A DNA stretch of 64,000 nt, from positions 1 to 64,000 of the forward strand of contig JAJOHG010000027.1 of NCBI GenBank assembly GCA_021029095.1, in the 5' to 3' direction. This document shows positions 12,378 to 34,223 of this stretch, piece by piece (position 1 is the stretch's first letter; every line of letters begins with the position of its first letter). A program made the translations under genes and the position numbers. The notes beneath the pieces were generated by a model. That model worked only from the letters and a program-made list of their open reading frames with translations. It ran no database searches and was not told the DNA's origin. The stretch is from Phellopilus nigrolimitatus. Lineage: Eukaryota > Basidiomycota > Agaricomycetes > Hymenochaetales > Hymenochaetaceae.

Positions 12378-15300
12378 ATGTCCGCATCTACCACCTCCGA
12401 CTCGCAGTCGACATTTTCCTTCGCTAAGCTCAATGACAGCAACTATGCGACATGGAGACTCGAAATGCGAGCTGCTCTCCAGGCCAAGACTCTCTGGCGC
12501 ATCGCTTCTGGCATTGCGACCAAACCGTCAAAGGCAGAGGAGCAGGAGGCATGGGAGGAGAAATCGGAGCAGGCAGCTGGCTTTATCTACGGAAAACTCG
12601 AGCATGGCATGCAGATCCTGGTTCAGGACGATTTGGGTAACCCAGTGGAGATGTTGAAGAAGCTGAAGGAGCTCAACCAGCAGGATAATGCGGCATCGCG
12701 TTTTATTGCCTATGACGAGTTCTTCAGCATTGCCAAAGCCGAGGACGAGTCGCTTACTGCTCTCACTGCTCGCATTGAGGAGTCGTTGCACAAGCTCAGG
12801 AATGCGCGCAGCTCTAAGCTCACCCTTGAGAAGTTTGAGGATGAGCTTGCGTCCATGTGTCTTATTCGTGCTCTCCCAGACGAGTACAAGGCCTTCCGAT
12901 CTGCCCTACTGCTTATGCCTACCTTCACCCTCGAGACGGTCAAGAAAGCGTTCTTACAGGAGCAGAAAGCCAGTGGCCCTCGTGCTGCAGACTCTGCACT
13001 CGCTCTCAAGGCCTCTGCTCCACCCTCCAAATCGACTTCATCGTCCTCCTCCTCGTCTCAGCCTCTTGTCTGCAATTTTTGCGGCATGAAGAACCACCTT
13101 GAAGCAACTTGCTACAAGCGTCGTGATGCAATGAAGGAGTTGAAGGACAAGAAGAAGAGGGGAGCAAGGCAAAGGCGAATGCGGCGCAGGAGGACACAGA
13201 GTCGACTCAGTCTGCTGAGTTTGCTGGCAATGCAAGTACCCATGACTTCACCAATCCCAACTCGCCCCTCCTCTCTGATGCAGGATCTGACTGGATTGTT
13301 GATACAGGCGCCACTTGCCACATGACACCTCACCGTCATTGGTTCAACCAATATACCCCTAATCGCACACCCATCCGCCTCGCCAACAACGACGTTATTT
13401 ACTCAGTTGGAATGGGGACTGTCCGCTTTCAACCAGTGGTCAATGGAAAGAAGGGTCGTCTGCTAGAGTTTGAGCGTGTTCTTCATGTACCAGATCTCAG
13501 AAACAATCTCCTCTCAGTCCTGTATTTAACTCGTGTCAAATCCTACATTGTCACTATCAAGTCTGATCAGATTCTCTTTCGTCGCAACGGCACTCTCCTC
13601 TTCACTGCTGCAATCAACACCAACTACGCCGCGTTCCTCAATGGACAAGTTGTGCCCATGACCCAATTCTCTGGCATGGTTAGCACCTGTCCACTCGACT
13701 TAACGCTCTGGCATCGTCGTTTTGCGCACTTGAATCATGGGGATGTCAAGAGACTGATCGATCATGACATGGTTAAGGGGATTATTGTGAAGTCTATGGA
13801 GTCGCCTGACCCAGTCTGCGAGCCTTGCATTGCAGGCAAGCAGCATAGGTCGAATGTCTCAAGACTTGCGTCCCATCGCTCTACTGGTCTGTTGCAGCTG
13901 GTCCACTCTGATGTGCATGGCCCTCTGCCAGTTCAAACTCGGCATGGCTATCGTTACTGGATCACATTCATTGATGATTTCAGTCGGCGTTGGGGAGTCA
14001 TACCCCTTAAAAAGAAAAGCGATGCATTTGACGCTTTCAAGCGCTACAAAGCACATGCAGAGAACCAGCTCAACCTGAAGATCAAAGCGACGCGCGATGA
14101 CAAGGGAGGAGAGTACATGCCCAAGGCATGGGAGCAATTCTGCATCTCTGAAGGGATTCACCGGCAACACACTGTTCGTGATGAACCCCACCAGAATGGA
14201 GTAGCTGAGCGAGCTAATCGCACTTTAGCTGAGGGCATTACCACCATGCTGAACGAAGCACACCTGCCTGCCAGTTTCTGGTGGGATGCGGTCAATGCTT
14301 TTGTTCATGTGCACAATCGCTCTCCTACTTCTGCTGTCCAGGGCAAGACGCCCTATGAGCTGTGGCACAATTCCAAGCCGGATGTGTCGCATTTTCGAGT
14401 ATTTGGCTGCACCTCCTATGTGCATGTCAAGAAAGATATGCGCAAACAGCTCCAGTCACACACGCAGAAATGCTCCTTCATTGGTTACCCTGAGAACTAC
14501 AAAGGCTGGATATTCTGGAACTCCATAACGCGCAAAGAGGTCATTAGCGACTCTGCTCAGTTTGATGAGCGCGTGTTCCCTGGAAATACCAGGTCCCCTG
14601 TCGACTTAAGGGTTCCAACTCCTCCAGAGGCTACAGCTGTGCCGGAACAGGGGGGAGATGGCAATGTGGATGATGTTCCGCCACTTCTTCTCCCTGCTAA
14701 TCCACCAGCTCCTCCTCCTCCTCGTCCTGCCACTCCTCCTGCTCGTCCTCCACCAGCTCCAGTCACTCCTCCTTTTCGCCCTGCACCACCTCCGGTGACT
14801 CCAACTCGGCCTGCTGTAAAGCGCGAGCGAGCACCATCGGATGTCCCTCCTGACCCTCCCGTGTTCTCTCCCTCTGCTCACCCTCCTCCTGCGAAACGAC
14901 CCAAGGAACCTCCTGCTCCCACTCCTGCACCTGAGTCTACTCCTGCACCTGAAGCGCCTTCTTGGCCTTCAACGTCTTGGCGCCCTCAGCCGCGTCCCTT
15001 GCATGGGTACAGAGATGCAGTGATTAATCCACTTGCAGATTATCCAGGTCGTCGCATTCCTAGGGCTCCAGCTGCACCAGCACCAGCAGCAGCACCTACA
15101 CCTGAGCCTGTGATTGAGCGCAGTGACGAGTTAGACATCATGTCTGAGGATGAGATGCAGGCTGAGGCGCTTATGTTTGCTGGACTTATGGACTTTGGGG
15201 CAAATGCGGCACTTGAGGACTGCTACATCAGTTTTGAGGACGCACACAATCATGTGTTGAAGTCTACAAACTGCTTTGAGCATGTCTTCTCTGCGGAGGT

Positions 15301-16381
15301 GCGCACCCAGTATGGTCCTGAGCCAGTACACTGGAGAGACATCAAGGGACGTCCTGACGCTTCCCTCTGGGAACAGGCTGCAATGGACGAGTTTATCAGT
15401 CTTGTTGAGAATGGCACCTTCATCCCAGTCAGACTTCCTTCTGGTCGCAAGACCATTGGCTGTCGGTGGGTGTTCAAACTCAAGCGCAAGGCAGATGGCT
15501 CAGTGGACAGGCATAAGGCGCGATTGGTGGCAAAGGGTTACTCACAGCACCCTGGCTTAGAGTTTGCACAGGTGTTTGCTCCTACTGCCAAGTGGGCTGC
15601 ACTTCGCGCTATACTTGCCTTGGCTGCAATTGAGGACCTGGAGTTGTTCAGCATTGACATCTCCACTGCATTCCTCAATGGTGACTTGGATCATGATGTC
15701 TACATGGATCAGCCAGAAGGGTTTGAGGAGTACTATGGCGCCGGTTTTGTGCTTAAGCTTGCTAAGGCGATCTATGGTCTTAAACAAGCTGGGCGCCAAT
15801 GGCACAAGAAACTCGACTCTGTGTTGAAGGGCATGGGCTTCTCTTTGGTTCGCTGCGACAACAGCATTTGGGTCTACAGACGCGACGATGTGCGCATCAT
15901 CATTCCAGTCTATGTGGATGACATGACCATTGCTGCAAAGGAGCAATTCTTGTTTGTCAAGCGCGAACTTGAAAAGCACTTCAAACTGCGCGACCTCGGC
16001 CCTACCTCCTTCCTGCTTGGTGTCCATATTGAGAGAGACCGCTCAATACGATCCCTATCCCTATCTCAGCGCCAGTACATCATTGACTTACTTGAGCGCT
16101 TTGAAATGGCTGGATGCAGCGAGGTTTCCACTCCACTACCAGAAGGCCATCGTCTCAGCAAGTCCATGGGTCCCCTCACTCCAGAAGAGATCGCATTCAT
16201 GAAGACTGTCCCCTACAGGCAGCTGATTGGTGCACTCATGTATCTGGCTGTGGCAACGCGTCCTGACATCTCCTATGCGGTTGGACTTCTTGCGCGCTTC
16301 AGGTCACTGTCTGTGTTTGTTGTGAGACCACTTCGCCTCACACACTCATCCATTGGACACAGTCTGATTGCCAGGTGTTGA
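12378..16381 (+). pseudogene. Copia-1 gag-pol polyprotein, frameshifted and truncated
   Basis: Starts at MSASTTSDSQSTFSFAKLND. Gag runs to the zinc knuckle CNFCGMKNHLEATC (about 13070-13115). At about 13157 one base is missing relative to the copy at 10618-11101 (gaggggagc against gaggaagggc), so gag ends out of frame at 13325 while pol continues in the next frame. Pol contains the aspartic protease motif DWIVDTGATCHMT (about 13290), the integrase zinc finger (HRRFAHLNHG ... CEPCIAGKQH), the DDE core (HSDVHGP, DDFSRRW, HQNGVAERANRT), a Pro-rich linker (14640-15000) and RT with YVDDMTIAA (about 15910). RT ends after RPDISYAVGLLARF in LTR-derived sequence, so RNase H is absent. Not functional. 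Confidence 0.9.
16301..16342 (+). repeat. Copia-1 LTR 3'-end remnant
   Basis: Matches 11336-11376 (ctgtctgtgtttgttgtgag and following) with about two differences. It is fused to RT coding sequence and followed by a diverged piece of the LTR's cactcatccattgg repeat. Confidence 0.75.
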
Positions 16382-17750: not shown

Positions 17751-17894
17751 GAGAGCGCCGCCGAGGTGCGCGAGCAGGGCTGCACCGCATCGCAGTCCGC
17801 CAAGTACCGCGCGTCGAAGGCGCTTGCCGAGAAGGGTGCGTTTGCCTTGTGAGATCCCCGTCTGGCAGAACGCTGACGAGCATGCAGCCACGTG

Positions 17895-18419
17895 TGTTGG
17901 AGCGCAAGCCGGCGGAGTCCCGTCCCGCGCGCACCGGTTGCGTGCTCGGACGTGCTGCCGCGAGCGCAGCGTCTCGGCTCTGCGAGCCCGAGGCTCGCTG
18001 CACCGCGATTGGTCGGCGCGCGGATGAACCGTCGTCCGCGCACCACTCCCGATCGTCCCCCATACCCCCGTTTATCATTGACCAATAGGACTACTATTTA
18101 CTTATCATTTATCCCCTTTTATCCTCCCTCCTTTATCTCGTAGAGTAAACGGGCTTATCCGAAAGCCCGCAAAGCAGTAGCATAAAAAGACACTTTATTC
18201 TTTCGCCCACCTCAGACGTTCGCACCGCCGCGCGATCGACTGAGGTGAGCTCTCGTTATTATACATGTTCTATTCTACTTTTGCTTATTAGACTATTAAA
18301 CTAGCTTACTGTGTATTAGGTTAGTTTACAATATAGACGTTCGCACCGCCGCGCGATCGACTGAGCTTACTGTGTATTAGGGTTGTCTCTTCGCGCGGAC
18401 CCTGTCTCACCTTTCAAAA
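17895..18419 (+). repeat. Copia-2 5' LTR (525 bp)
   Basis: Starts TGTTGGAGCGCAAGCC and ends CCTTTCAAAA, a non-canonical end (not CA) supported by the TSD and the adjacent PBS. It contains a duplicated 30-bp block (gacgttcgcaccgccgcgcg and following, near 18217 and 18337), a duplicated cttactgtgtattagg, and a hairpin cgggct...agcccg near 18148. I see one difference from the 3' LTR (G at about 18256, A in the other). Confidence 0.92.
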
Positions 18420-18434
18420 GGTTATGAGCCTTGC
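18420..18434 (+). promoter_or_regulatory. Copia-2 primer-binding site
   Basis: GGTTATGAGCCTTGC, identical to the copia-1 site and immediately after the LTR. It is complementary to the initiator tRNA-Met anticodon region (see 11377). Confidence 0.78.
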
Positions 18435-18485
18435 TGACCACTGAGCAAGCCGAATCTAATCGTTTTAACGTACCAAATTGCCGTA

Positions 18486-20527
18486 ATGTCGAACTCGCAC
18501 GACACCCTCCCGGCCAGTGTTCCGAAGCTCGCGACGAGCGGAGCGAACTGGGTCATATACCGCATGCGCTTCCAAGCCGCCGTGAAGGCGAAGGGGAAGT
18601 GGGGCCACTTCGACGGGACGTCGACGCGCCCGGAGCCGGTTGGCGACGCTGCTGTTGCGCTAGCGTTGGCGGATGGTGATCCGAACCCGAACGATGCCGT
18701 TGAGGCATGGGATAGGTCCGAGGATGTTGCGATGTACTTGCTGTCGCAGCGTCTTGCCGACTCGACATTGATTCAAGTCGGAAACCTACCGAACTGCGCC
18801 GCGCGATGGAGCGCAGTTGTACGCGAGTTCACGCAGAAGTCTGCGTTTGCGCAGACCTCCCTTCGCACTGAATTCCTTGAGGCACATTGCCCGGGGGATG
18901 CTGATGTCCGCGAGTACCTGAGCGAGCTGCGCACGAGGCGCGAGACGCTCGCCCAGTCCGGAGTCGAGATTTCCGACAAGGATTTTCGCTCGACCATCAT
19001 CAATTCGATTCCGAACCGACTCGCGAATTTTGCATCTTCGCAGTTAACGGCAGCGGAGATAGCGGCACGCATGTCCGCTACCCTGGCCGATGACGATGAA
19101 CACCACGTTTTCGAGGTCGATCCTGAGGTCTTGATCCACATAATCTCGGACGAGGCGGATCGGCAGAAGCGAGAGCGCCAGTCGAAGCGCAAGGAGCCGG
19201 CTAGGAACTCGAAAGACAAAGACGAGGCTCTCCATGTGAGCTCGTCCGCGAAGTCGAAGCCCAAAGGCAACGCGAAGCCGCGCGGCGCCTGTTGGAACTG
19301 CGGCGAGACCGGGCACCTTCGTGCGAAGTGCCCGAAGCCGAAGAAAGACGCGTCCAAGGACAAGTCCAAGGACAGCGCGCACGCTGTCGACTCGGACTCG
19401 GACTCGGACGGTGTCTGGGACTGTGCCAACGCGGCATGGGAGTGGTCCGACGACGAGGACGAGACGGACTTGATGCCCGGGCTTGTTGACATGTCGGATA
19501 GCGAGCCCAAGGACGCCTGGACCGATGATGAGGACGACGGCGAGCTATTGAGCTCGGGCTCCGATAGCGAGGAGGAGGGCAGTGAGGAGGAAACGAGCGC
19601 GTACGTTGCGCATGCTCGCGAGGCCGACGATGCACGTCGCGCGATCCTCGACTCTGGTTCTACCCGCCACATCTCGCCATACCGCGCCGATTTTTCTTCG
19701 TTTGCTGAGACGCCGCCAAAAAGCCTTCGCGCCGCGAACAAGCAGCCATTCCACGCCACGGGTGAGGGAGAATTAGTTATCGAGCTCCCGAACGGCACAG
19801 ACACAACGAGGATGACACTCACTGAAGTCCTGTATTCCCCCGAGGTTGGCTATACCTTGATCTCCGTCGGCGCGCTCGACCGCGCGGAGTATTCGGCTAC
19901 CTTCGCTGGAGGCAAATGCGTGCTGCGCGACGCGGCCGGTTTGCGCGTTGGAGCGATCCCTCGGTCCGGGAAGGGCCTGTACCGTTTTGCGCACGCGTCC
20001 GTTGACCCGACACTGCAAGACGCAGCGAATGTCGCCGAGGACACGATGAGCCTCATGGAGCTGCACACTCGCATGGGCCACATCGCGCCCGCGACGGCCG
20101 AGAAGCTCGTGCGTAAGGGGTTTGTGACCGGTCTTCGTCTGGATACATCCGGCGAGGCGCCGACATTTTGTGAGTCTTGCGTCTACGGCAAAGCGCAGCG
20201 CAAACCTATCGCGCGCGAGCGAGGCGGCGACCGCGCGACGGAATTCGGAGCCGAAGTCCATACAGATGTTTGGGGACCGGCGCCGACGCGCTCGCTCGGC
20301 GGCCGACACTACTACGTCTCGTTCACGGACGACGCGACGCGGGTAACGAAACTGTACCTGCTAAAGAAAAAGAGTGACGTTTTTCGCTCTTACCGTCAGT
20401 ACGAGTCCTGGGCCGATACCCAGATGAATGCGAAGATCCGGGTTCTTCATTCCGATCGGGGCGGCGAGTACACTGGTAAAGAATTTGTTATGCATCTCAA
20501 AAGCAAAGGGACGAAACAGAAACTTAC
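18486..20527 (+). pseudogene. Copia-2 gag-pol, segment 1 (gag, protease, integrase N-part)
   Basis: Single frame from MSNSHDTLPASVPKLATSG. Gag is followed by the zinc knuckle CWNCGETGHLRAKC (about 19288-19330), an acidic Asp/Ser/Glu tract (19380-19600), the protease motif AILDSGSTRHIS (about 19640), the GAG-pre-integrase HTRMGHIAP...CESCVYGKAQ, and the integrase core with HTDVWGPAP, FTDDATR and HSDRGGEYTG. The frame stops at the gypsy LTR after KQKLT, and segment 2 continues it. The chain of three segments sums to 1493 codons including stop. The gag-pol is one frame with no gag stop, as in classical copia. Confidence 0.93.
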
Positions 20528-21015
20528 TGTTAGAACTTACCTTGCTTACCTCACGATCCCCCTTACATCATTCCTTCCTTGCTTAGTCAGGCCCTTTCCC
20601 TTAGTTTATGGCCTGACCCCTTCCTCATTGTACGCGCCCCTCCTAGGTGCTCCCCGCTCCACGCTCCACTGCCTCATTCCATGCTCCACTGTACATGCCC
20701 CTTACGGGCCTTTCCCTCACGCTCCCCTCATGTCATGCTGCGCATGACTCCATAGCTCCACTGACATCACAGTCAGTCTCACAGTATATATAGGTACATC
20801 GCTGGGACCTTAAGCCCCAGCTTGACCTCCTTGTTCAGTAGCTAGCATAGTCTTGCTATTCATCGCCCTGCTCTTCATAGTCCTGCGCCCTGCGCTTCAC
20901 AGTCTTGCCATAGTCACCGTCGCCTTGTCACAGTCAAGCCTCACGTCACTCGTCACGTCACTGTCCACAGTCACGCTCCTCGCTCCATTAGGCAAGACCC
21001 TGTTACTCCGTAACA
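20528..21015 (+). repeat. Gypsy 5' LTR (488 bp)
   Basis: Starts TGTTAGAACTTACC and ends CTCCGTAACA. A TATATATAGG box near 20783-20792 could drive transcription, followed by repeated cacgtcact/cacagtc motifs. Confidence 0.95.
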
Positions 21016-21036
21016 TTAGGTCAAGCTCTCTTTTGA

Positions 21037-22500
21037 TTGTCGACGTATCAACGTCTAGACAAAATTTCTACCCTACCCAAACTCCCCGCTAACGCGGTCT
21101 GGCCCACCGATCAACCCTACCCAACTGCGGGAACCTATCCACTCACCCTCAGAAGGAGATCGGACGGACAAATTGCCTGGAAAGTATTTCTTGAAGGAGG
21201 CGATCCGCACACCGAACTTTTATACCGTTACCACGAATTTGGAATCCTCCAAAACGTCCGACCCCGCGAACACTCAAGTCGACCTATTGAAATACCAACG
21301 CCACCACAGCATATCGACCCTGTTGACGTAATCACTCGATCGTTATCTCAAACATCGCTTGACGACAATTCCACTGCACCACCTCACGTTCCTACTCGAC
21401 CAAATACTCCACCACAGACCACAGTACCAACCGTCACGCCAAGCCCCACCATGAGCACCAAAGAAATCGCATTCGCCAAGCCCCCTGACTTCGATGGCAA
21501 GCGCAGCAATGCCCAATACTTTTGGGATGCCTGCCAGGCCTATCTACGAGGCAACAAGGACATCTACAAGACCGATCTGCACAAAATCACGTTCGTCCTT
21601 TCATTCATGAAGATTGGTTCAGCCGCCACTTTCGCCAGCAATAAGTACAAGACATACACGGATACAGCAGAATATGGAACCTGGGCAGACTTCGCCAAAG
21701 CCTTTGACGCCCAGTTCCTCCCTGTCAATGCCAAACAGGATGCGTCGTTTGCAATCGCCAATTGCAAACAGGACGACGATGTCGACGGCTTCATTGCCAC
21801 ATTCAAGAGTCTCGCCCTCCAAGCCGGGTTCACCCAAGAGGAACCCCTCATCGAGTACTTCCGCCGAGGTCTCAAATCCAGCATCGCAGACAAGATCTAC
21901 AATCGAGGCGAGCCTACTACACTCGAAGGATGGTACACCGAAGCCAGCAAAGCCCAACAGAACTTACGACGACAAGCTGAGCTCAAGCACGCACGACAAG
22001 CGATGGTCTGGGGCTTTGGTACCAGCCCAGGCAACAACCTGACGAAGAAGACTGACCCTGAAGGCTTCCAACGCAGCTCCAGCGGCGCAGCCTGGGAGCC
22101 AACTTCTGGGAAGCAAACCGATCCCAACGCCATGGAAATTGGACGAGTCTCTAAGGAGGAGAGAGATCGTCGCAAGACAGACGGACTTTGCTTCTATTGC
22201 GGAAAGAAGGGACATCTGGCGCGCGAATGCCGTCAGAAATTCGACACTCCCAACAGTCGACGATTCGCCTTTGACAATCGAACCACAAGGGCTGGCAGCA
22301 ACTACAAGATCATGTTCCATCGTGACCCCCCGAGGCGCAGCATCCGCAGCACCCCAGCCACAGAAGCGCCTGCCCAGCATGCCGAATCTTCGACACCCGC
22401 TAAAGAACCCCCTTCGGCCCGCATTCGCGCCATCCTGGCCAACCTCTCTGAAGAAGAACGCAAATCCGCATTCGACAACCTGGACCTCGAGGGTTTTTAA
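21037..22500 (+). CDS. Gypsy Gag protein
   Basis: 487 codons. The N-terminal 140 residues are Pro/Thr-rich. An internal Met (about 21451, MSTKEIAFAKPPDFDGK) begins the retrotransposon-gag domain (WADFAKAFDAQFLPVNAKQD, FRRGLKSSIADKI). The CCHC knuckle CFYCGKKGHLAREC is at about 22190-22235. The protein packages element RNA. The start at 21037 lies 21 bp after the LTR, so the internal Met is also possible. It stops 80 bp before the pol Met, in another frame, so pol needs reinitiation or frameshifting. Confidence 0.9.
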   Translation: MSTYQRLDKISTLPKLPANAVWPTDQPYPTAGTYPLTLRRRSDGQIAWKVFLEGGDPHTELLYRYHEFGILQNVRPREHSSRPIEIPTPPQHIDPVDVITRSLSQTSLDDNSTAPPHVPTRPNTPPQTTVPTVTPSPTMSTKEIAFAKPPDFDGKRSNAQYFWDACQAYLRGNKDIYKTDLHKITFVLSFMKIGSAATFASNKYKTYTDTAEYGTWADFAKAFDAQFLPVNAKQDASFAIANCKQDDDVDGFIATFKSLALQAGFTQEEPLIEYFRRGLKSSIADKIYNRGEPTTLEGWYTEASKAQQNLRRQAELKHARQAMVWGFGTSPGNNLTKKTDPEGFQRSSSGAAWEPTSGKQTDPNAMEIGRVSKEERDRRKTDGLCFYCGKKGHLARECRQKFDTPNSRRFAFDNRTTRAGSNYKIMFHRDPPRRSIRSTPATEAPAQHAESSTPAKEPPSARIRAILANLSEEERKSAFDNLDLEGF

Positions 22501-22580
22501 GAAGGCAGCCAGCATCGACGTCTGCACTGCCTAGTATTTCGATTTCTCCTGTAATCATAGCCGAACATGCCCACAATTCC

Positions 22581-25500
22581 ATGAAAATTCCCATTGGCAT
22601 CCACTCGAGAAAAGCAATCGTCGAAACCACAGCCCTCATAGACTCCGGCGCAGAAGGACAATTCCTCGACTCCACCTTTGTGGACATACACCAAATCCCC
22701 ACCAAACCTCTGCGTCGACCCATTCAAGTCCTTAATGTTGACGGAACTCCTAATTCCGAAGGAGAAATCAGTCGTTTCACTTGGCGATTCATTGCGATCG
22801 GCGAAGAACTCATCCCAATTTATTTTCTCGTTACCTCCCTTGGAAGAGAAACCGCTATCCTGGGCCTTCCTTGGCTACGTCGCATCAACCCCAAAATCGA
22901 TTGGGAGAAACGCACTCTGGACATCCCTAGGCAAAATCCACGATCCCTATCTTTTGCCCGATGCGAATCCTATGCCCCACCCGAAGAGCGATCTTTTGTC
23001 GCAAAAATCACTCTCAACATCCGCGCAAAAGTAAACACCGCCATGGATCTTGCACAACGTGCCAATGCTGCCAAGGAACAGAAACCCCTTGAAGAAATTG
23101 TACCAGCACACTACCATCAGTTCCTGAAGGTTTTCGAACAGAAGGCATCCGAACGTTTTCCTCCAGTACGGACCTATGACCACGCCATCGTCCTAAAACC
23201 CGATTTCCAACCTAAAGACTGCAAAGTCTATCCCATGGCACCCACGGAACAAAAGGCTCTGGATGACTTCCTTGACGACAACTTGAAGAAAGGTTATATT
23301 CGCAAATCCTCTTCCCCCATGGCCTCACCTTTCTTCTTCGTCGGAAAAAAGGACGGAAAATTGCGTGGATGCCAGGACTATCGCAAACTCAACGAAGGAA
23401 CCGTCAAAAACGCCTATCCGATTCCCCTCGTATCTGAACTATTGGACAAAATCCAGGGCGCAAAATACTTCACCAAACTGGATGTACGATGGGGATACAA
23501 CAATATTCGGATCAAAGACGGTGACCAATGGAAGGCAGCATTCAAAACAAATCGAGGACTCTTCGAACCTATGGTCATGTTTTTTGGACTTTGCAATTCA
23601 CCGGCGACCTTTCAAGCATTCATGGATGACACCTTCCGAACCGTTCTGCTGGAAGGATGGGTCCTCATCTACATGGACGACATTTTCATCATGGCCTCGG
23701 ACATTCCTACACTTCGCGAACGCACCCGCAAAGTCCTCGCCATTGGACAAGATGCCGACTTATACTTCAAACCGGAGAAATGTGTTTTCGAAGCCACACA
23801 GGTAGAATATCTTGGACTTATCATTTCGGAAAACTCAGTTTCCATGGACCCTGTCAAACTGGCTGGAATCTCGCAATGGCCCACACCGACGAACAAAACC
23901 CAAGTCCACTCCTTCCTAGGGTTCTGCAACTTCTATCGCCAATTCATCGACCATTATGCAGAAATTGCGGCACCATTGGACGTACTAAAAAGGGAGAAAA
24001 CCACGTGGGAATGGTCAGACGTACATGAGAATGCATTCCAACGGCTCAAAGGCAAATTCCTTGAGAAACCCATTCTCCAGATGCCTGACAAAACTCGGCC
24101 ATTCATCCTGGAAACCGACGCCTCTGGTGTAGCATCGGCTGGCACTCTTAAACAACTCGACTCGAACGGCGAACCCCATCCCTGTGGTTTCATCTCCAAA
24201 CAGTTTGACGACACCCAACGACGCTATGAGATTTATGATCGAGAACTCTTGGCAATCATCCGCGGACTTGAGGCCTGGCGACACTATCTATTGGGTGCAC
24301 CCCATAAGATAACCATCTGGTGCGACCACAAGAACCTTACCTATTTCCGTGCGGCCCGCCGTCTTTCACCCCGCCAAGCACGATGGAGTCTATTTCTCTC
24401 CCAGTTCGACCACCACATTCAATATGCACCAGGAAAAGACAACACCACAGATCCCATGTCTCGACGCTCTGATTACCTGATTGATGGCAAATCAGAACCC
24501 GATGACCCCCCACTCTTACCCGAATCCGTCTTCGTGGCCACGACTACATTCGACTTTAAGACCCGTCTAATTCTTCGCACCAAAGAAGACAACTTTGCCA
24601 ATGAAGCTCTCAATATCATCCGATTGGCCGGTATTCCACCATTTCGGTCTTCCCTTGCCGATTGGACAGAGAAGGATGGCATTGTATTCTTTAAACAGAA
24701 GGCCTACATCCCAGATGACATCGAACTTCGCCGACATGCAGTACAACTGTACCACGACACCCCTGTCATGGGACACCCCGGAATTTACAAAACCCTCGCA
24801 TTGCTCAAACAACATTATTGGTGGCCAGGAATGTACATCTTTGTCAAGAAATTCGTCAATGGTTGCGCGATCTGTCAACAAATGAAGATCAACACACATC
24901 CCACCGTCCCACCCCTCCATCCGATCCCTGCTGAACCCAATGCGCATCCGTTTTCCACAGTCTCCATGGACTTTATCACCGGACTCCCCGAATCAAATGG
25001 CTACGACTCCCTATTCGTCACCGTCGATCACAACCTTTCCAAAGGCATCGTCCTCCCCCCTGCAACAAAACCATTGATGCCCTTGGAACTGCCCAATTGT
25101 ATCACGACAACGTCTACCGGCGCTTTGGGTTACCCCAGAAACTCATCTCCGACAGAGGACCCCAATTTGCCTCCAAAGTATTCCAGGAGCTTTGCAAGAA
25201 GCTCAATATCACATCAGCCCTATCCACCGCATTCCACCCTCAAACAGACGGAGAAACGGAGCGAGTAAACCAAGAAGTCGAAGCATACCTTCGAATCTAT
25301 TGTGGACGCCATCCCGAAACCTGGGCTGATCACCTGCCTGATATCGAATTCGCACACAATCAGCGTGAACATTCTGCCACAAAACGCTCTCCATTCTCAC
25401 TCCTTATGGGGTACGAACCAATCGCCATCCCTGCTGCAGACCCCAACTCCGATCACCCCTCGGTAGAAGAACACCTTCGCTCCCTTAAAGCCCTCCGAGA

Positions 25501-25996
25501 AGAAGCACTTGCTGCGCATGAGCTTGCTCACATGCACATGGCTGCCCGCATGACTCGGAATTTCACACCCTTCAAGAAAGGGGAGAAAGTTTGGCTAGAA
25601 GCCCGGAACCTTGACATCGCCTCTCCATACAAGAAATTGTCCCCTAAACGCGAAGGTCCCTTTGAAATCAAGGACGTACTATCCCCATGGTCTTATCGCC
25701 TGACTCTACCGGTCCGATGGCGAATCCACAACGTCTTCCATGCCTCCCTCCTGACTCGTTATGTGGAGACCGATACCCACGGACCTACCCACGCGGAGCC
25801 ACCACCTGACCTTGTCAATGGAGAAGAAGAATACGAGGTTGACGCAATACTACGTCATCGTTTCCCAAAGAACCGAAGACAATACCTCGTGTCCTGGAAA
25901 GGATGGTCATCGCTCCACAACTCGTGGCAGAAAGAATCGGACCTCAAAAATGCGAAAAAACTTCTCAACGATTATAAAAAGACCCATCGACTCTAA
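22581..25996 (+). pseudogene. Gypsy Pol polyprotein with chromodomain, one frame break
   Basis: Retropepsin ALIDSGAEGQFLD (about 22637); RT with MVMFFGLCNSPATFQAFMDD and YMDDIFIMA (about 23670); RNase H with LETDASGVASAG (about 24110); integrase zinc finger (HPGIYKTLALLKQHY...CAICQQ); core with SMDFITGLPES, LISDRGPQF and HPQTDGETERVNQE; and a C-terminal chromodomain (EYEVDAILRHR...YLVSWKGW, about 25826-25960). The frame changes at a C-run at about 25054-25059. The first reading ends at 25268, and the second picks up the integrase at 25063 and ends KKTHRL at 25996. One extra C would rejoin them, so a disabling deletion or a base-calling error fits better than programmed shifting inside the integrase. 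Confidence 0.92.
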
Positions 25997-26028
25997 CACC
26001 GTCCATCAACTCCCGTTCCCACTGTTCC

Positions 26029-26385
26029 ATGCCCTACTTCCACTTCCACATTCCCCATCTGCCCTCTGTCAACTGGACCTTCGCCCTAGAAATCGGAGAA
26101 TCCACCCCTCTTTTCCTTCAATTTGTCATCGACCACACCAACTACCCCGACGACCGTCGCCTCGTAATCCGCCTCGGCATCGACGTCCTCGAACAGCAAA
26201 TCCTCCACCTCGTCTTCCGTTCCATCCCACCTAGCCGTAGGCCCAACCGTCTATCCCGAGCCGTCCCTGCACGCAACATACCCGTACAATTTGTTCCCCC
26301 TGAAGACCTCATCCCCGACCTCGACCCTGTCCCTGTCTATCGCGATGCCGCCACAGAGATCCCCGAGGCGCCTGAACACCTTTGA
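26029..26385 (+). CDS. Gypsy extra ORF 3a, unknown
   Basis: 118 codons starting 33 bp after pol. It contains FALEIGESTPLFLQFVIDHT and LGIDVLEQQILHLVFRSIPP, mixed hydrophobic and charged, with no recognised domain and no clear signal peptide. It overlaps ORF 3b by 95 bp in another frame. It could be a separate accessory protein or the first part of one protein split by a frameshift. Confidence 0.6.
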   Translation: MPYFHFHIPHLPSVNWTFALEIGESTPLFLQFVIDHTNYPDDRRLVIRLGIDVLEQQILHLVFRSIPPSRRPNRLSRAVPARNIPVQFVPPEDLIPDLDPVPVYRDAATEIPEAPEHL

Positions 26386-27211
26386 TCCTCTCCCGGCACC
26401 TCACACTCGGCTCCCCGTCTCTGGCAACCGGCCCAACCTCGACTTCGCCAATGATCGCTCTTTCCTCCGCCATGTCTTCGTCGATCCTGGTCTCGTCAGC
26501 CCCATTAGTCAAACCATCCGAGACTCTCAACGGCCCGATCTCGTCCGCTGGCAGAAGGCCCATGACCAAGCCGAGCAGAACCTCACCATCGCCAACCGTA
26601 TGGGTGAACATATCGATGAACTGCGCGACGAAAACGAGAAGGCAAAGTCTACGGCTCGCCGGCAAATTCGACAAATCTTGGAAGGAGCCCTTGATGCTGG
26701 TGTACTCGCTATCCTGGACGACTATCGACCCTCGAATGACCGCTTTCCCATTGATGAAGCCACAGGCGCCATTGATCTCACTTCGCCTCCGCCTGGACTT
26801 CCGGTCCCTCCACCGTCGAATCCGCCACCTCCTGCTGCACCATCACCGTCTCCGTCACCCCCCGATGAATTCATTGCCGGAACATCACCACCGGTCACTC
26901 CACCCACGGCTCGTCCCTTCCGGCGCGCAGTCAATCCCTTCACGCAGTCCATGATGGGTGACGTCCCGTTCTCTCAGATGTCGCCTCAGGAGATCCAAGG
27001 ACACCTTAACCGGCGCAATTCCCCTGAGAACTCCATGGCAACTCCGCTTCGAGTTCGGACACAGTTCTCGCCTCGGGTCATCAGGTGCTTCACATGCGGC
27101 CAAGACGGACATCGGCAACAGGATTGTATTCGCTACCAATGTGGATGGTGCGACAGACTCGCCCCTGGACACTCCTCGACTAACTGCCCGCACACAAACC
27201 GTCATTATTAG
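26291..27211 (+). CDS. Gypsy extra ORF 3b with CCHC zinc knuckle
   Basis: 306 codons, possibly starting at a later Met (MPPQRSPRRLNTF, about 26345). The N-terminal half has a coiled-coil-like region (KAHDQAEQNLTIANRMGEHI, ENEKAKSTARRQIRQILEG). A Pro-rich centre follows. The C-terminus holds the knuckle CFTCGQDGHRQQDC and a second Cys/His cluster CGWCDRLAPGHSSTNC. It occupies the env position but looks nucleic-acid-binding, not envelope-like: I see no transmembrane segment. It resembles a second Gag-type protein. Confidence 0.7.
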   Translation: MFPLKTSSPTSTLSLSIAMPPQRSPRRLNTFDPLPAPHTRLPVSGNRPNLDFANDRSFLRHVFVDPGLVSPISQTIRDSQRPDLVRWQKAHDQAEQNLTIANRMGEHIDELRDENEKAKSTARRQIRQILEGALDAGVLAILDDYRPSNDRFPIDEATGAIDLTSPPPGLPVPPPSNPPPPAAPSPSPSPPDEFIAGTSPPVTPPTARPFRRAVNPFTQSMMGDVPFSQMSPQEIQGHLNRRNSPENSMATPLRVRTQFSPRVIRCFTCGQDGHRQQDCIRYQCGWCDRLAPGHSSTNCPHTNRHY

Positions 27212-27339
27212 GGATGGAACGTCCGCGATGACGTTAAACTAGGAGGTCGTTGTGGGAACAGATTCGTGAAACCCTCTGCTTTCAGGTGACGCTGACAAAC
27301 CTGGTCCAACGTTTTGGTTTCGGCGAACTGTCGGTCTTA

Positions 27340-27351
27340 AAGAGGGGGTAA
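27340..27351 (+). promoter_or_regulatory. Gypsy polypurine tract
   Basis: AAAGAGGGGGTAA-type purine run ending immediately before the 3' LTR. It is the expected plus-strand primer site. Confidence 0.8.
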
Positions 27352-27839
27352 TGTTAGAACTTACCTTGCTTACCTCACGATCCCCCTTACATCATTCCTT
27401 CCTTGCTTAGTCAGGCCCTTTCCCTTAGTTTATGGCCTGACCCCTTCCTCATTGTACGCGCCCCTCCTAGGTGCTCCCCGCTCCACGCTCCACTGCCTCA
27501 TTCCATGCTCCACTGTACATGCCCCTTACGGGCCTTTCCCTCACGCTCCCCTCATGTCATGCTGCGCATGACTCCATAGCTCCACTGACATCACAGTCAG
27601 TCTCACAGTATATATAGGTACATCGCTGGGACCTTAAGCCCCAGCTTGACCTCCTTGTTCAGTAGCTAGCATAGTCTTGCTATTCATCGCCCTGCTCTTC
27701 ATAGTCCTGCGCCCTGCGCTTCACAGTCTTGCCATAGTCACCGTCGCCTTGTCACAGTCAAGCCTCACGTCACTCGTCACGTCACTGTCCACAGTCACGC
27801 TCCTCGCTCCATTAGGCAAGACCCTGTTACTCCGTAACA
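27352..27839 (+). repeat. Gypsy 3' LTR (488 bp)
   Basis: Same length as, and apparently identical to, 20528-21015. Followed by the CTTAC duplication. Confidence 0.95.
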
Positions 27840-27844
27840 CTTAC

Positions 27845-28241
27845 CGTCCATGATATGCCGGAGCATAACGGTGTCGCCGAGCGCCTGAACCGCACAATCC
27901 TCGAGAAAGTGCGCGCTATGTTGCACGCGAGCGGCCTGCCGAAGTTTTTGTGGGCCGAGGCCGCGCGCCACGCTGTTTGGTTGAAGAACCGTACCCCGAC
28001 GCGAGCGCTGAAGGACGTGACACCGCACGAGGCGATGACGGGCACGAAGCCCGACCTTCGCGGGCTGCACGCATGGGGAGCGAGGTGCTGGGTGCACGAC
28101 AATTCGAGCTCGAAGCTCGAACCGCGCGCGCGCGAAGGCCGCTGGATGGGATTTGACGCGACGTCGAATGGGCAGCGAATTTTTTGGCCTGAAAAGAAGA
28201 GTATTAGCGTTGAGCGGAATGTTTATTTCGACCCCGGGGAG
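27845..28241 (+). pseudogene. Copia-2 gag-pol, segment 2 (integrase C-part)
   Basis: Continues segment 1 in frame: MPEHNGVAERLNRTILEKV carries the catalytic Glu of the DDE integrase, then WAEAARHAVWLKNRTPT and WMGFDATSNGQRIFW. It ends at DPGE where hAT-1 is inserted. Confidence 0.93.
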
Positions 28242-28429
28242 TAGAGCCTGGCACGAGTAGAACCTCGGGTTGACCCGGACCTGTTGGCGGGTCACCCGTG
28301 GCTTAAATTTCCCAACCTGGACCCGGCTTGACCCGGACCTGTTCGGACTCGGACCTACGGGTCCCCAAAAACCCACGGGTGCAGGTCACGGAGGTCAAGG
28401 GTCAGTTTGCGGATCTTCACAGGTTTTTG

Positions 28430-28566
28430 TAACCAAAGCCGTGAACTCCTATCTTACTGAGCCAAACTACACGGAGGCATACCAGACAGCACCCAGATCG
28501 TCTCTTACTTAGTCAAGAACAAGTCATTGACCTTCGAAGAGTGCATTGTGTGGGCGAGACTGCAAT
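28430..28566 (+). pseudogene. Captured UBA1 (ubiquitin-activating E1) fragment
   Basis: AVNSYLTEPNYTEAYQT followed, after a one-base shift, by QIVSYLVKNKSLTFEECIVW and ARLQFE. This resembles the E1 region after the adenylation domain (yeast: NVNAYLTQPNF...FEDCIKWARLEFE). It ends exactly at a GTAAGC donor site, so an exon-intron boundary was carried along. Too short for function. Confidence 0.65.
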
Positions 28567-28599
28567 TTGAGTAAGCAAAATCCCCACACACTGTATACC

Positions 28600-29240
28600 A
28601 CAAACCTACTGACGGCCCCACCCGACCTGCACGAGCTGTACGCGCCGCATCCTGAGATTCGCTTGCCGCTGAATGCATGCATCTCGCCATCGCCGTGCGC
28701 AAATGCGGACCCACCCTACCAGTGCTGCACATTCAATGCGGTCCTGACGACCTCCGCACTGCTCAACAAGTCCAAATTGCTTTTTGGACTCGTCCTCACG
28801 CCATACCACTCGCTCAAAGAGGGCGATACTCCGATCCTGTGCATCACCGACACTGTCATCTCGTGCTGCCGCTGTTGCAGAACCCTTCGTGCAGTTCATC
28901 GACGGCGGCAACCAATGGTATTGCATGCTTTGCATGATGTCCAATGAGGTGCCGCAGATTTTTGACTAGGGACAGGTGGGCACGCGCAGAGCTGGTCGAA
29001 CTCGTTGCACCGACAGAATACATGGTCCGCCCGCCCCAGCCTGTGTTTTACTGCTTCTTCGTTGACATGATCTATGCCGCTGTCTCGACCGGTATAGTCG
29101 CGACTGCCTGTCGGTCACTACTCGAGACGCTCGATAGAATTCCGAACGATGACAATAGGACGAAGATCGCGATCATCGCTTTCGACGTCACCTTATATTG
29201 CTTTACTATGCCGGTACACATAATTCGCGAAAACTGTACT
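28600..29240 (+). pseudogene. Captured SEC24 (COPII cargo adaptor) fragment
   Basis: PPDLHELYAPHPEIRLPLNA and NKSKLLFGLVLTPYHSLKEG, the zinc-finger region (ITDTVISCCRCC, then [18 protein letters not shown]), and [13 protein letters not shown] with [20 protein letters not shown] from the trunk domain. Frame changes after CCRCC, a stop after PQIFD and several substitutions show decay. The normal protein recruits cargo into COPII vesicles at the ER. Confidence 0.87.
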
Positions 29241-29559
29241 TTTTCTATCTCTTATTTGAGCACATTAGCCGGGAACAGACAGGCGTTTTGGTGGGGACAT
29301 GTTGGGCTGACTAATACAGCTACAACATAAGTGGAAGACAATAACTTTTTTTCCAAGGAGTGCTAAGCAAAGAAAAAAGCACGAGCAGAACCAACTCATC
29401 GAGGGCTCTCATTCCATATATTTATTTTGTTGTGAAGTGCGAAAATAAATTAAACAGGTGCCTAGATGCATTGTCGATAAAACAAGGTGCTCGGATGTTT
29501 CCGACCCCTCTAATCATTGACCCAGGTCGCACTGGCTGAGTGACATCTCACTCCGTCGG

Positions 29560-30722
29560 GCAGCAGCTCCTCCGGTGGACGCTTCTACGACGACCCGCAC
29601 AACGACGCCTGGGCTGCGCAGGCGCCCGCCTTCGGCCACTGGAGTCCGCGCAGTGCCCGGTGGCAGCGCGAGCACTACGCGAGCAGGGGCGACGGCTACA
29701 GCGACTACTCGTACGAGCACGACGCGCCGCCGTCCTTGTTGCAATCTGGGTACAGCGAGTACTACTCCGCGTCGAGCGAGCCGTGCGACGAGCCTGCGTT
29801 CTACGAGGCGGGCTATCATGACAGGTCGGCCTACAGGCACAACTACCAGCAGCAGCGCTCATACAGCACCTATCTCGCAGGCCCGGCGTTCTCGCCTCGA
29901 CACCGCCGCACACCTACGCCCTCACCCCCGCCCGCGCCCCTCCCGTCATCCCCGTCTCCAGACTACATCCAGGTCGCGTCTCTCCCCTCCAGCCCTTCCC
30001 ATCCGCCCCGCGCAAGTTGGTCATCCTCGATCTCAATGGCACGCTCCTTGTGCGCACCGCGCGCGGCGTGCCGCACCCGCGGCCGTACATGCCCGCGCTG
30101 CGCGACTTCCGCTTCACGCCGCGCACGCGCGCGTTGGCTCGACTCGATGGTCTGCTCCAGCGCGCAACCGCACAACATCGACAAGATGGGTGCGCTGCTG
30201 CTTCTTTGACGCGCTCTTCGGTGTGCCTCTTGCCGGCACCGCAGCGTGCGACGCAGACGAAGGGTTCGTCGCCGTCTGGGCACGCGACACGCTCGGCCTC
30301 TCACATGGCGACTAATGTACGCTTCTTCTCCCCCTATCGTTCTCTAACTAGTTCTTACCTGCCCCTAGCGAAAAAAACACAAACAACGAAAGACCTCGCG
30401 AAGCCCTGGGCTCGCCTCTTCCACCCCCAGTACCTCCTCTGCCAACGCTCCCACTTCCGCGCCTAGCGCTGAACCCCCGCGGGAGCTGCACAGCGCGTAC
30501 ACGACATTTCTCCTTGACGACTACCCCCGCGAAGGCGCACCTCCAGCCGTACAGCCACGTCTGCATCCGCGAGTATGCAGAGCAAGCGCGCGAGCGCGAC
30601 GTTCGTCTCAAGGTGCGCGCTTTGTTTGCGCAGGTGGAGGTAAAGCCGGAGCCGGCGCAGACGCACGAAGCGCAGGAGGCGCTGGCGCTTGTGGAAGAGG
30701 CGGACGGGGAGGTGGAGCCGGA
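29560..30722 (+). pseudogene. Captured FCP1-homology (HAD-type) phosphatase fragment
   Basis: A Tyr/Ser/Pro-rich N-terminal region (GGRFYDDPHNDAWAAQAPAF, then SYEHDAPPSLLQSGYSEYY) leads to LVILDLNGTLLVRTARG and RPYMPALRDF, an FCP1/NIF phosphatase motif with Asn in the second Asp position of DxDxT. LDSMVCSSAQPHNIDKM, FVAVWARDTLGLS, TQTTKDLAKPW and AHLQPYSHVCIREYAEQA follow in other frames. At least two frameshifts. The fragment ends at a GTAAGT donor at 30723, next to the SMC2 junction. Confidence 0.72.
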
Positions 30723-30727
30723 GGTAA

Positions 30728-31440
30728 GTGTGTCGAGCTTTGGGATGATCTCTTCAGCGAGCAGGGATGTGATTTCGTCGACACGCTTCTCCTTCTTGCC
30801 CATGGTCTTCTTGGCCTTGTCCTTCTGCTCTTCAAACATGCGTGTGCCGGCCGCCTCCTCTACCATGCCCAGGATTTCTTGAGGTCGCATATTCAAGACC
30901 TGTTCGACGATGAGATAGCGTTGGTATATATCATAATATGCCTACCTTCGTGATGCGGCCCTGTATAATAAGGAAGTTCGGGTTGTTGATGTTCAGCTGC
31001 ACACCTTGGAAAAGCGTCTGGATGGTGTGCTGCTGCGACTTGTGTCCGTTGAGCAAATACTTGGAAACGCTAGGCAAAGCTATTTGGCGCGTGACTGTGA
31101 TCTGTTTGCAGTTCTCCAGTCCGACAGGCCTTTTGTCGCGATCTGAAATTGTCGAAGACGATCGTGACGCTGGCTTTCGTTATCCCGGCCTGACCACGCT
31201 TGTAAATGAGGTCCTGCTGGTTCTGAGCGCGCATCTGAATCATACAGTGCGTATTTCTTACTGAGGACACGTTCGTGATTCCGAGCACGAAGCAGATCGC
31301 GTCCAAGATGTTGGATTTGCCAGAGCCGTTGAGACGCGTAGAGCGCGCGATGGCATCCCAATCCGCCATACCCACATTTATCTCTGACTCCTTTGGAACC
31401 CTTGCCTGCTATGTACATATCATACTTACATATGATATAC
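30728..31440 (-). pseudogene. Captured SMC2 (condensin) N-terminal fragment
   Basis: Opposite strand to the other captured pieces. It carries the P-loop [20 protein letters not shown] (about 31330-31270), [20 protein letters not shown] and VTIVFDN. After a partly intronic stretch come NMRPQEILGMVEEAAGTRMF and KAKKTMGKKEKRVDEI to PKLDTL (about 30900-30730). These are ATPase-head and first coiled-coil sequences of condensin SMC2. Intron-like gaps are retained, which implies DNA-level capture. Confidence 0.9.
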
Positions 31441-31651
31441 AAATAGATGTACCTTTGCTACACTTTCCTTGAAAACCCGTGTGAATTACCCGCAGGTTTT
31501 GAAAAAACACAGATTCTCAACCTGGACCCGCGAAAACCCGTTTCCCACGGGTCACCCGTGCACGGGTGATCCGTGAATACGGATCTGCAGTCCGAGTCGG
31601 GTCGCAAATACCCACGGGTTCCAGGGAGTCGTGCTACGCTCTACCGGGGAG

Positions 31652-33691
31652 ACTTCGAGTCGTCTCGAGGGGGAGGAATTGGATGGAGGGGGAGACGAGC
31701 CGACCCCGAAGAACTCACCGCCGATGCCCGCTAATCCGCCCGAAAACCCGTCAGCAGAATCGCCGGCCGACCCGCCACCCGCACCTGTCGGACCCGCAGC
31801 GGCTGATCGCCCGCAGCAGCGCGAAGATCCTCCACAGGATCCCCCGCAGCAGCGCGGGCAGTCCAGACCAGCCGCGACCGATCCCCCGCCGCAGCGCGAG
31901 CGCCGAATCCGTTTCCCATCGGCCTACCAACGTCGTCTTGATGCCGGAGAGGGCACGCACACGCATTGGCGTCGTGACGGTGCCGTTCCGCGGGGTATGC
32001 GCACAATGCGCGAGTTTGTCGACCAGAACGATGACGCGGCCGAGCTAGTAGAAGAAGACGACTATGATGATGAATATGAGTTTTGCGCGGCGATGGAGGA
32101 GGCGGAAGGGCTCGAACCGCGATCGCTCGCGGAAGCGAAACACTTACCGGAGTGGTCCGAGTGGGAGCGCGCCGTCAACGACGAATTATCGACGCTGCGC
32201 GCGGCCGGTACTTGGGTTTTGGAGGAGCCGCCCGCCGGTGCCAATATCGTCGGCTCAAAGTGGGTTTTCAAGATCAAAAAAGACGCAGCCGGAAACATCG
32301 TCCGGCGGAAAGCACGTCTTGTTGCCCAGGGTTTCAGCCAGGTCCCGGGAGTCGATTACTTCGATACCTTTGCACCCGTTGCAAAGCTGGCATCCATCCG
32401 TGCCACTCTTGCGATGGCGGCACGGCTCGATCTTGAGCTTGAGCAGGTGGACATCAAAGGGGCCTATCTCAACGGTGAGTTGGAGGCCGGAGAAGTTATT
32501 TATATGAGACACCCACCAGGATACGTGCCGCGCGACGCAGGCAGAAAGGTCTTGAGGTTGCGGAAGACGCTATATGGACTGAAGCAGAGTGGAAGACGTT
32601 GGTATCAGAAACTAACGTGGATTTTCGTCGACGAGCTCGGACTGACACGTTGTGACGTGGACCAGGCAGTGTTTTTCCGTCACGTGGGGCGTGACGTGAC
32701 TGTCGTCGTCGTGCACGTCGACGACTGCACCATTGCTGCGTCCTCCACCTCTCTGGTATCTGCGCTAAAAGCTGGTCTTGCTCGCTACGTCGAAGTCACT
32801 GACCTCGGGCCACTACACTGGTTACTTGGCATTGAAATCCGCCGAAACCGCGACACAAAAATTCTGTCACTCTCGCAAACGGCCTACATTGAGGCCATTC
32901 TCCGTCGGTTCAACTTCGAGGACCTCAAAGCCGCTTCGTCTCCGATGGACCCGAATATCCATCTGAACAGCCAGCAGGGGCCGCAAACCGCACAAGAACA
33001 TGCACAAATGCGCAACGCGCCGTATCGCGAGGCTCTCGGCTCAATCATGTACGCGGCCATGGCCACTCGACCCGACACCGCGTTCGCCGTAACGCTCTTG
33101 TCGCGTTTCTCGACGAACCCCGGCCCCGCGCATTGGGACACTGTCAAGCGCGTCTTTCGCTACCTGAAGGGCACCCGCGAGCTTCGGCTCACCTACGGAG
33201 GGACAGGGAGTGCCGAAAACAGTGGGATGGCAGGGTATACGGACGCAGATGGAAGCACGCAGGAGGACAGGCGCGCTATCTCAGGTAACGCCTTTCTTAT
33301 TGACGGCGGGGCCGTTTCGTGGTATTCTAAACAACAGGAAATTGTTTCGCTCTCGACTACGGAGAGCGAATACGTCGCCGCGACGCACGCCGCGAAAGAA
33401 GCGATCTGGCTTCGCCAGCTCATCGCGCAGATTTTCGCGCCGCTCGCGGGGCCGACTGTTCTCTTCTCTGACAACCAATCCGCGATCGCGCTGACGAAGG
33501 ACCATCAGTACCACGCGCGCACTAAACACATCGACATCCGCTTCCACTTTCTTCGCTGGGTCTGCGAAAACGGCACAATCAAGTTAATATACTGCCCGAC
33601 CGCCGACATGGTCGCCGACGCGCTCACGAAGCCGCTCCCGTCATTCAAAGTCAAGCATTTCGCCGCCGCGCTCGGACTCCTCTCGGCTTGA
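31652..33691 (+). pseudogene. Copia-2 gag-pol, segment 3 (RT and RNase H)
   Basis: In frame with segment 2. An acidic/Pro-rich linker is followed by RT (GSKWVFKIKKDAAGNIVRRK, LEQVDIKGAYLNGELEAGEV, LYGLKQSGRRWYQ, and VVHVDDCTIAA where copia usually has YVDD), then RNase H (LRLTYGGTGS, GYTDADGSTQEDRRAISGNA, STTESEYVAATHAAKEAIWL, DNQSAIALTKD, ARTKHIDIRFHF, ADALTKPLP) to stop at 33691. No internal damage. The motif HVDD replaces YVDD, a point to note for RT activity. Confidence 0.93.
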
Positions 33692-33698
33692 GGGGGAG
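33689..33698 (+). promoter_or_regulatory. Copia-2 polypurine tract
   Basis: GAGGGGGAG overlaps the pol stop and directly precedes the 3' LTR. Confidence 0.8.
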
Positions 33699-34223
33699 TG
33701 TTGGAGCGCAAGCCGGCGGAGTCCCGTCCCGCGCGCACCGGTTGCGTGCTCGGACGTGCTGCCGCGAGCGCAGCGTCTCGGCTCTGCGAGCCCGAGGCTC
33801 GCTGCACCGCGATTGGTCGGCGCGCGGATGAACCGTCGTCCGCGCACCACTCCCGATCGTCCCCCATACCCCCGTTTATCATTGACCAATAGGACTACTA
33901 TTTACTTATCATTTATCCCCTTTTATCCTCCCTCCTTTATCTCGTAGAGTAAACGGGCTTATCCGAAAGCCCGCAAAGCAGTAGCATAAAAAGACACTTT
34001 ATTCTTTCGCCCACCTCAGACGTTCGCACCGCCGCGCGATCGACTGAGGTGAGCTCTCATTATTATACATGTTCTATTCTACTTTTGCTTATTAGACTAT
34101 TAAACTAGCTTACTGTGTATTAGGTTAGTTTACAATATAGACGTTCGCACCGCCGCGCGATCGACTGAGCTTACTGTGTATTAGGGTTGTCTCTTCGCGC
34201 GGACCCTGTCTCACCTTTCAAAA
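33699..34223 (+). repeat. Copia-2 3' LTR (525 bp)
   Basis: Same as 17895-18419 except for about one substitution. Followed by TSD ACGTG. Confidence 0.94.

Follow-up and report, generated by a model that had tools for sequence, protein, structure and literature searches.

In the genome of the basidiomycete Phellopilus nigrolimitatus, a 3402-bp element with hAT ends and without a transposase carries pieces of four host genes, one of them nested inside another, and has transposed as a unit after their capture. It occupies positions 28,242-31,643 (coordinates and length read from the sequence and recomputed) of the 64,000-nucleotide stretch analysed here, which we call the window (assembly GCA_021029095.1, contig JAJOHG010000027.1, positions 1-64,000 of the forward strand; C190 in the element comparisons). 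As an element with terminal inverted repeats (TIRs) that is devoid of a transposase, contains host gene DNA and has parent loci still present elsewhere in the genome, it belongs to the Pack-TYPE elements, here Pack-hAT. We consider it probable that these non-autonomous elements originated by break repair with templated copying of host DNA or of DNA from other elements, followed by transposition and by later nested captures.

The insertion and its gene pieces

The two unstranded copies of the 8-bp target site duplication (TSD) CCGGGGAG, read from the sequence at 28,234-28,241 and 31,644-31,651, match each other exactly and enclose a left TIR (TAGAGCCTGGCACGA, 28,242-28,256, plus strand) and a right TIR (TAGAGCGTAGCACGA, 31,629-31,643, minus strand), both located by a TIR pattern search. 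Across the 64-kb window the 15-bp pattern TAGAGCNTNGCACGA matches exactly only at the two ends of the element, and with up to 3 mismatches allowed it has 22 matches versus 17.9 by chance. The surrounding DNA is a copia copy on the plus strand (about 17,895-34,223), whose LTR matches at 17,894-18,419 and 33,698-34,223 are 99.8% identical and flanked by ACGTG. When its flanks are joined over one TSD copy they yield one open frame, and the joined 550-bp sequence aligns unbroken to other copia copies, the best nine of which match at 91-92% over all 550 bp. Because of the exact TSD, the nearly identical LTRs, the open joined frame and this unbroken match, the element is a real and recent insertion into a young copia copy. 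The hAT termini, the exact TSD and the continuation of the copia frame across the insertion, all of which the first-pass annotation had reported, were thereby recomputed and extended by the copia alignments. The same copia copy harbours a second, nested LTR element upstream of the hAT element (20,528-27,839; LTRs 99.6% identical, flanked by CTTAC), and the left part of the window contains a 2.1-kb inverted repeat of 99.95% identity (1-2,096 and 13,556-15,651).

The element begins with a left-end module (28,242-28,401, plus strand), whose first 155 bp match the family member C290b at 98.7% and other interior types at 85-93%. It is followed on the plus strand by a piece of the ubiquitin E1 gene Uba1 (28,433-28,571), with 128 of 139 aligned bases identical to C223:196845-197005 (L081) and 22 gap columns. 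This putative Uba1 locus, matched as a fragment, reads as Uba1 by TIGR01408 (E 1.7e-31, far under the whole-protein cut-off) and by the PDB Uba1 entry (2.7e-33). The adjoining Sec24 piece (28,575-29,276, plus strand) has its donor at C57:410576-411323 (L061) and contains two frameshifting gaps; PF04811 is recognised in the piece, and both PF04811 and PF04810 in the donor. A 181-bp stretch at 29,305-29,485, without gene name or assigned strand, is 90% identical to a family-like locus on C1. The FCP1/NIF-like phosphatase piece (29,561-30,726, plus strand) keeps an intron-like stretch and is 92% identical to its donor at C90:566031-567394 (L055), of which a second copy lies on C83; beyond the SMC2 insert it resumes at 31,341-31,406 (plus strand; C90:567505-567571). 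Its donor matches PF03031 at 21.3 bits, just below the 21.8 cut-off, and the FCP1-like name is the weakest of the four gene identities. Within this piece, on the minus strand, lies an SMC2 head piece (30,727-31,340) with intron-like stretches kept and donors at C90:465167 and C287:22346; PF02463 is found in the piece, which is 93% identical to the donor L058, and this donor matches SMC2 in the PDB at 4.5e-27. The right-end module (31,407-31,643, plus strand) closes the element, its last 200 bp being 98.5% identical to C179, 97.0% to C146 and 95.5% to C290b.

The pieces of UBA1, SEC24 and an FCP1-like gene on the plus strand and of SMC2 on the minus strand that the first-pass annotation had named were thus confirmed by donors and by profile or PDB matches, and the piece at 29,305-29,485 is added as a fifth. 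The parent loci are not adjacent to each other but lie at four places, one on C223, one on C57 and two, about 100 kb apart, on C90. Some donor loci are present in two copies in the assembly, which probably represent both nuclei. The two FCP1-like donor copies (L055 and L056) are only 92% identical and the two SMC2 copies 98%, an unequal divergence between supposed haplotypes. The absence of a transposase, likewise noted before, is borne out: no part of the C290b transposase stretch aligns to the window copy, and none was detected in the seven window ORFs scanned.

An element family with a transposase-bearing member

In the 56.4-Mb assembly the pattern TAGAGCNTNGCACGA occurs at 37 places, and the reversed-pattern control at 0. 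Thirty-four of these matches form the paired ends of 17 elements, 2.0-8.1 kb long, of which 16 have an exact 8-bp TSD and one (C123) has 7 of 8 bases; an eighteenth, C556, has one altered TIR base and an exact TSD. The genome search with termini and TSD proposed at first pass thus collected 18 complete elements, 17 of them with exact TSDs, and sites and TSDs all differ. The three unpaired matches comprise the end of C556, a lone end on C415 (one end only within the 9 kb of sequence examined) and a match on C555, which was treated as chance, neither end being visible in the sequence examined. A longer end pattern, which at 3 mismatches gave 17 real versus 20 control matches, was dropped.

The family has nine interior types, among which those of C124 and C446 have much of the interior in common at about 85%. 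The window type is represented by five copies on the contigs C190 (the window), C7, C123, C135 and C556. A single base among 3402 separates the window copy from C123, identity to the window copy is 99.6% for C7 and 99.0% for C135, and the four copies compared pairwise are 99.0-100% identical. Since the five 3402-bp copies lie on five contigs with different TSDs, this type was transposed as a unit after capture. When the whole interior was compared, with 40 candidates scored, five places matched and all five bear family ends, so that the fragments were not found contiguous without these termini. The suggestion of a recently active Pack-hAT family is sustained by the 18 elements and their TSDs, by the single base between window and C123 and by the transposase-bearing relative.

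This relative, C290b, is an 8105-bp element with family ends and an exact TSD, which contains a gene with several exons as well as captured pieces. With its last two exons joined, the hAT dimerisation profile PF05699 scores 28.1 bits (26.5 in the related C603 copy; cut-off 21.4), while the last exon alone, at 18.5 bits, falls under the cut-off. A protein search with the C603 exons returned eight homologues, seven of them with PF05699; three of the eight, two from Antrodiella citrinella and one from Ganoderma sinense, are named 'HAT C-terminal dimerisation', which points to a host among the agaricomycetes. At C423:6795-18210, two transposase-bearing relatives of C290b form a large inverted pair with matches about 0.9 kb apart.

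An 8-bp TSD, short TIRs and a family member with a predicted hAT dimerisation region place the family in the hAT superfamily, and we take TAGAGCNTNGCACGA to fit the hAT consensus. Helitrons possess neither TIR nor TSD and encode a rolling-circle Rep/helicase; the TIRs and TSD of the element and the hAT gene of a relative with the same ends rule out this class. Pack-MULEs, in which the TSD is longer (about 9-11 bp), are ruled out by the 8-bp TSD.

Other subfamilies carry captures of their own. A septin piece in C625 matches PF00735 at 4.7e-42 (C608 and C611b are at least 98.6% identical to C625), C146 contains Rps19 and eIF3a pieces adjoining its FCP1 piece, and C478 contains CHD1 and DJ-1 pieces; in C478, three pieces from one locus on C112 stand in altered order, one of them inverted. 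Of ten proteins checked in the family, eight matched Pfam, either above the cut-off or within a gene already confirmed; no Pfam match was obtained for the other two, one being the second of the C112 pieces in C478 and the other the C290b piece from C46. The eIF3a locus on C90 (294492-295634) is by far the best PF22591 match (469 bits, positions 1-363 of 390), with two stops in the read-through that are perhaps introns. Besides this locus, PF22591 has 16 further matches, of which 14 exceed the cut-off; some form pairs or triplets of equal score, and some are free of stops. It seems that eIF3a was captured on many occasions. On C1, a family-like locus (L068, 2431630-2434811) has one left end and a UCH-peptidase piece nearby; farther on lies a frame with an NYN match, which could represent an ordinary gene. 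Positions 1877-3863 of the C179 element were not counted as a capture, because by the matches listed this part is a high-copy repeat.

Order, exchange and sources of the captures

In C146 the FCP1 piece runs unbroken past the SMC2 site of the window and ends at the same right boundary, and C179 matches C146 across this site in one alignment, with FCP1 likewise unbroken. The window type lacks about 110 bp of FCP1 (judged by the donor, which has short internal repeats differing in number from the piece; 100 bp judged by C146) and has 614 bp of SMC2 there instead; microhomology at the two joins amounts to 0 and 1 bp. Because SMC2 sits inside a piece that C146 and C179 carry unbroken, it arrived later, in an element already holding FCP1. 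Ungapped identity to the donors, which is 86.9% and 90.7% for the two halves of Sec24, 92.1% for Uba1, 92.7% for FCP1 and 96.6% for SMC2, rises in the nested order and agrees with the order of capture, although it is a rough clock only, because different genes evolve at different rates. A short form of Sec24, truncated at nearly the same point and fused to the right end, is common to 12 loci at 71-87%, and the Sec24 piece is the oldest part of the element. In C290b, the Sec24 piece has lost 1 bp and is interrupted by a stretch of about 490 bp that matches C46:472485; absent from the window type, this stretch is a second nested capture.

The ends are mosaic as well. The first 155 bp of the window element, so close to C290b, match C146 at 87.1% and C179 at 86.2%, and the left end of C146 is 98.1% identical to that of C608. 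Window, C146 and C179 carry the same FCP1 piece and right end behind three different left ends, with a different left limit of FCP1 in each. As one combination of FCP1 and right end follows three different left ends, pieces and ends have been exchanged between family members.

The SMC2 and FCP1 pieces keep frame-interrupting, intron-like stretches that are present in donor and piece alike (one SMC2 stretch with a 23-column gap in the piece), and captured pieces begin and end inside exons. The retention of these stretches in both pieces supports capture from genomic DNA, as the first-pass annotation had proposed. Its further proposal, that the Uba1 and FCP1 pieces end in retained splice donors and that breakpoints fell at or near splice sites, has to be abandoned: the GTAAG(C/T) motifs are made by the joins, and the donors continue as coding sequence. 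At the first join, TTTGAG of Uba1 is followed by a 3-bp filler, TAA, and then by GCAAAA of Sec24, while the Uba1 donor continues GAGGAGAAG; at the other, GAGGTA of FCP1 is followed by AGTGTG of SMC2, while the FCP1 donor continues GAGGTACCTTCG. The comparison with both donors at single-base level covered three junctions, Uba1/Sec24 and both ends of the SMC2 insert.

Relative to its donor, the FCP1 exon of the window has 25 nonsynonymous and 22 synonymous changed codons and three frameshifting gaps, and that of C146 has 14, 17 and two; the second donor copy (L056) has five, 18 and none (window versus L056, Fisher p 0.02). The corresponding counts for Sec24 are 38, 35 and two in the window and 26, 27 and three in C290b. 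With their frameshifts and relaxed codon changes, the captured pieces look like passengers.

Four of ten clearly placed donors lie on C90, a contig of 638 kb that makes up 1.13% of the assembly: those of FCP1-like (566 kb), SMC2 (465 kb), septin (366 kb) and eIF3a (294 kb), with second FCP1-like and SMC2 copies on the small contigs C83 and C287. The binomial probability is 3.3e-6, or 2.0e-5 for 4 of 15 when five unplaced pieces are counted against the clustering, both post hoc values for ten donors (C90 four times, C57, C223, C112, C614, C46 and C174) chosen by the analyst after the pattern had been noticed. For the septin, eIF3a, CHD1, DJ-1, C46 and C174 donors, the placement relies on coordinates. 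Five captures for which no single parent stands out were left out of the count: Rps19, the C154 piece (C223:1166252 or C168/C18), the interior of C446 with its roughly ten copies, the UCH piece of C1 and the 181-bp piece of the window. The whole-assembly pattern search gave no exact TIR match on C90, and the four pieces derived from this contig reside in different subfamilies. We regard the clustering as a lead and not as a result. That the family goes on shuffling genes and has a spatial memory in doing so is a tentative idea, which we would not at present favour; if true, copying would draw mainly on the part of the chromosome that touches the parental element, and elements would exchange pieces and ends with one another before they spread.

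Models of capture and known systems

How cut-and-paste elements acquire genes is still argued, with gap filling, fork switching and neighbour fusion under discussion. For the present family we propose that the hAT ends would be recognised by a transposase made elsewhere, by copies of the C290b type, and that breaks inside an element would sometimes be repaired by copying host genes or other family members, with template switches and with microhomology minimal or absent. Once filled, the element would transpose and multiply, and later breaks would add further pieces inside earlier ones. Since the parent loci remain, the pieces were copied, and their internal position, the small replaced gaps, the nesting and the scrambling in C478 fit templated break repair with template switches (the C46 and C112 donors being placed by coordinates only). 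Swapped outer ends are unexpected from simple gap repair, so an additional process must be involved, either recombination between elements or transposition by alternative ends or fusion of neighbours; templated copying plus exchange between elements is most likely. Gap-filling or fork-switching models have been described for animal Pack-TIRs (PMC8277862), and our mechanism is close to the gap-filling model as presented there. Microhomology at one or both breakpoints was reported in 67.6% of these animal cases (PMC8277862), in contrast to 0 and 1 bp at the SMC2 joins, and the near-absence of microhomology at the three junctions read also fits an end joining of loose fragments.

An unlikely alternative, proposed for plant Pack-TYPE elements (PMC8903248), is that two nearby members were mobilised as a macro-transposon by their outer ends, carrying the DNA between them. 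Such fusion accounts for swapped left and right ends, and members on C290 do lie close together (elements at 46.5 and 62.3 kb, a copy of Sec24 with the right end at 53 kb, a lone right end at 61 kb), but it fails to explain SMC2 inside FCP1 with replacement, the C46 piece in Sec24, the out-of-order and inverted pieces of C478 and the origin of the four window pieces from four loci, spread over three contigs. For the capture of mRNA or cDNA there is a precedent in a fungal hAT, that of histone H3 in Pseudocercospora (PMC6710886); here such a capture is very improbable, being contradicted for SMC2 and FCP1 by the intron-like stretches and by pieces that start and stop inside exons. Somewhat less improbable, yet still poorly favoured, is the reading that the pieces may be kept for a job, e.g. 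in chimeric transcripts or in antisense or small-RNA control of parent genes. It would suit the antisense orientation of SMC2 to the Uba1, Sec24 and FCP1 pieces and the recurrence of conserved genes across subfamilies, whereas frameshifts, relaxed codon changes and the free variation of pieces among subfamilies speak against it; recognisable captures are biased towards conserved genes, since no others can be named. The doubled donor loci might finally suggest a segmental duplication or assembly artefact bounded by inverted repeats by chance, a reading to which we give practically no credence in view of 18 elements at different sites with different TSDs, the empty copia site and the five copies of 3402 bp on five contigs.

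Multi-gene chimeric contents in a TIR element are known from the Pack-MULEs of plants, from which the present family differs in superfamily, TSD length and transposase. As far as the cited account describes them, the Pack-hATs of maize and rice (PMC8903248) share with it the hAT ends, the 8-bp TSD, the host coding DNA inside and the absence of a transposase; the fungal family differs in that one element combines pieces of four genes, that pieces are nested and intermediates survive, and that ends are swapped between subfamilies. Stepwise addition of gene pieces has been demonstrated in a plant Pack-PIF cluster in the same account (PMC8903248). Animal Pack-TIRs, including the multi-copy Pack-hAT-N8_XT of frog (PMC8277862), likewise hold captured genomic DNA inside TIR elements, and compared with those presented there the fungal family shows many different serial captures, including a transposase-bearing copy with captured pieces. 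In fungi, DNA transposons, hAT apparently among them, have been described to encode a TET/JBP dioxygenase (PMC12730594). A literature search, with subscription journals mostly outside it, did not turn up any fungal hAT in which several genes had been captured in series, or any with capture intermediates.

The closest fungal counterparts are the hAT elements that carry histone H3 in the ascomycetes Pyrenophora (PMC3538342) and Pseudocercospora (PMC6710886), which similarly multiply a housekeeping gene sequence. In these cases, to the extent that they are described in the cited sources, a single gene is involved (intron-free in Pseudocercospora), unlike the basidiomycete family, in which a fungal hAT packages genomic DNA of many conserved genes. 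One genome here holds donors, pre-capture relatives and post-capture elements, and nested captures date each other, so that models of capture can be tested base by base.
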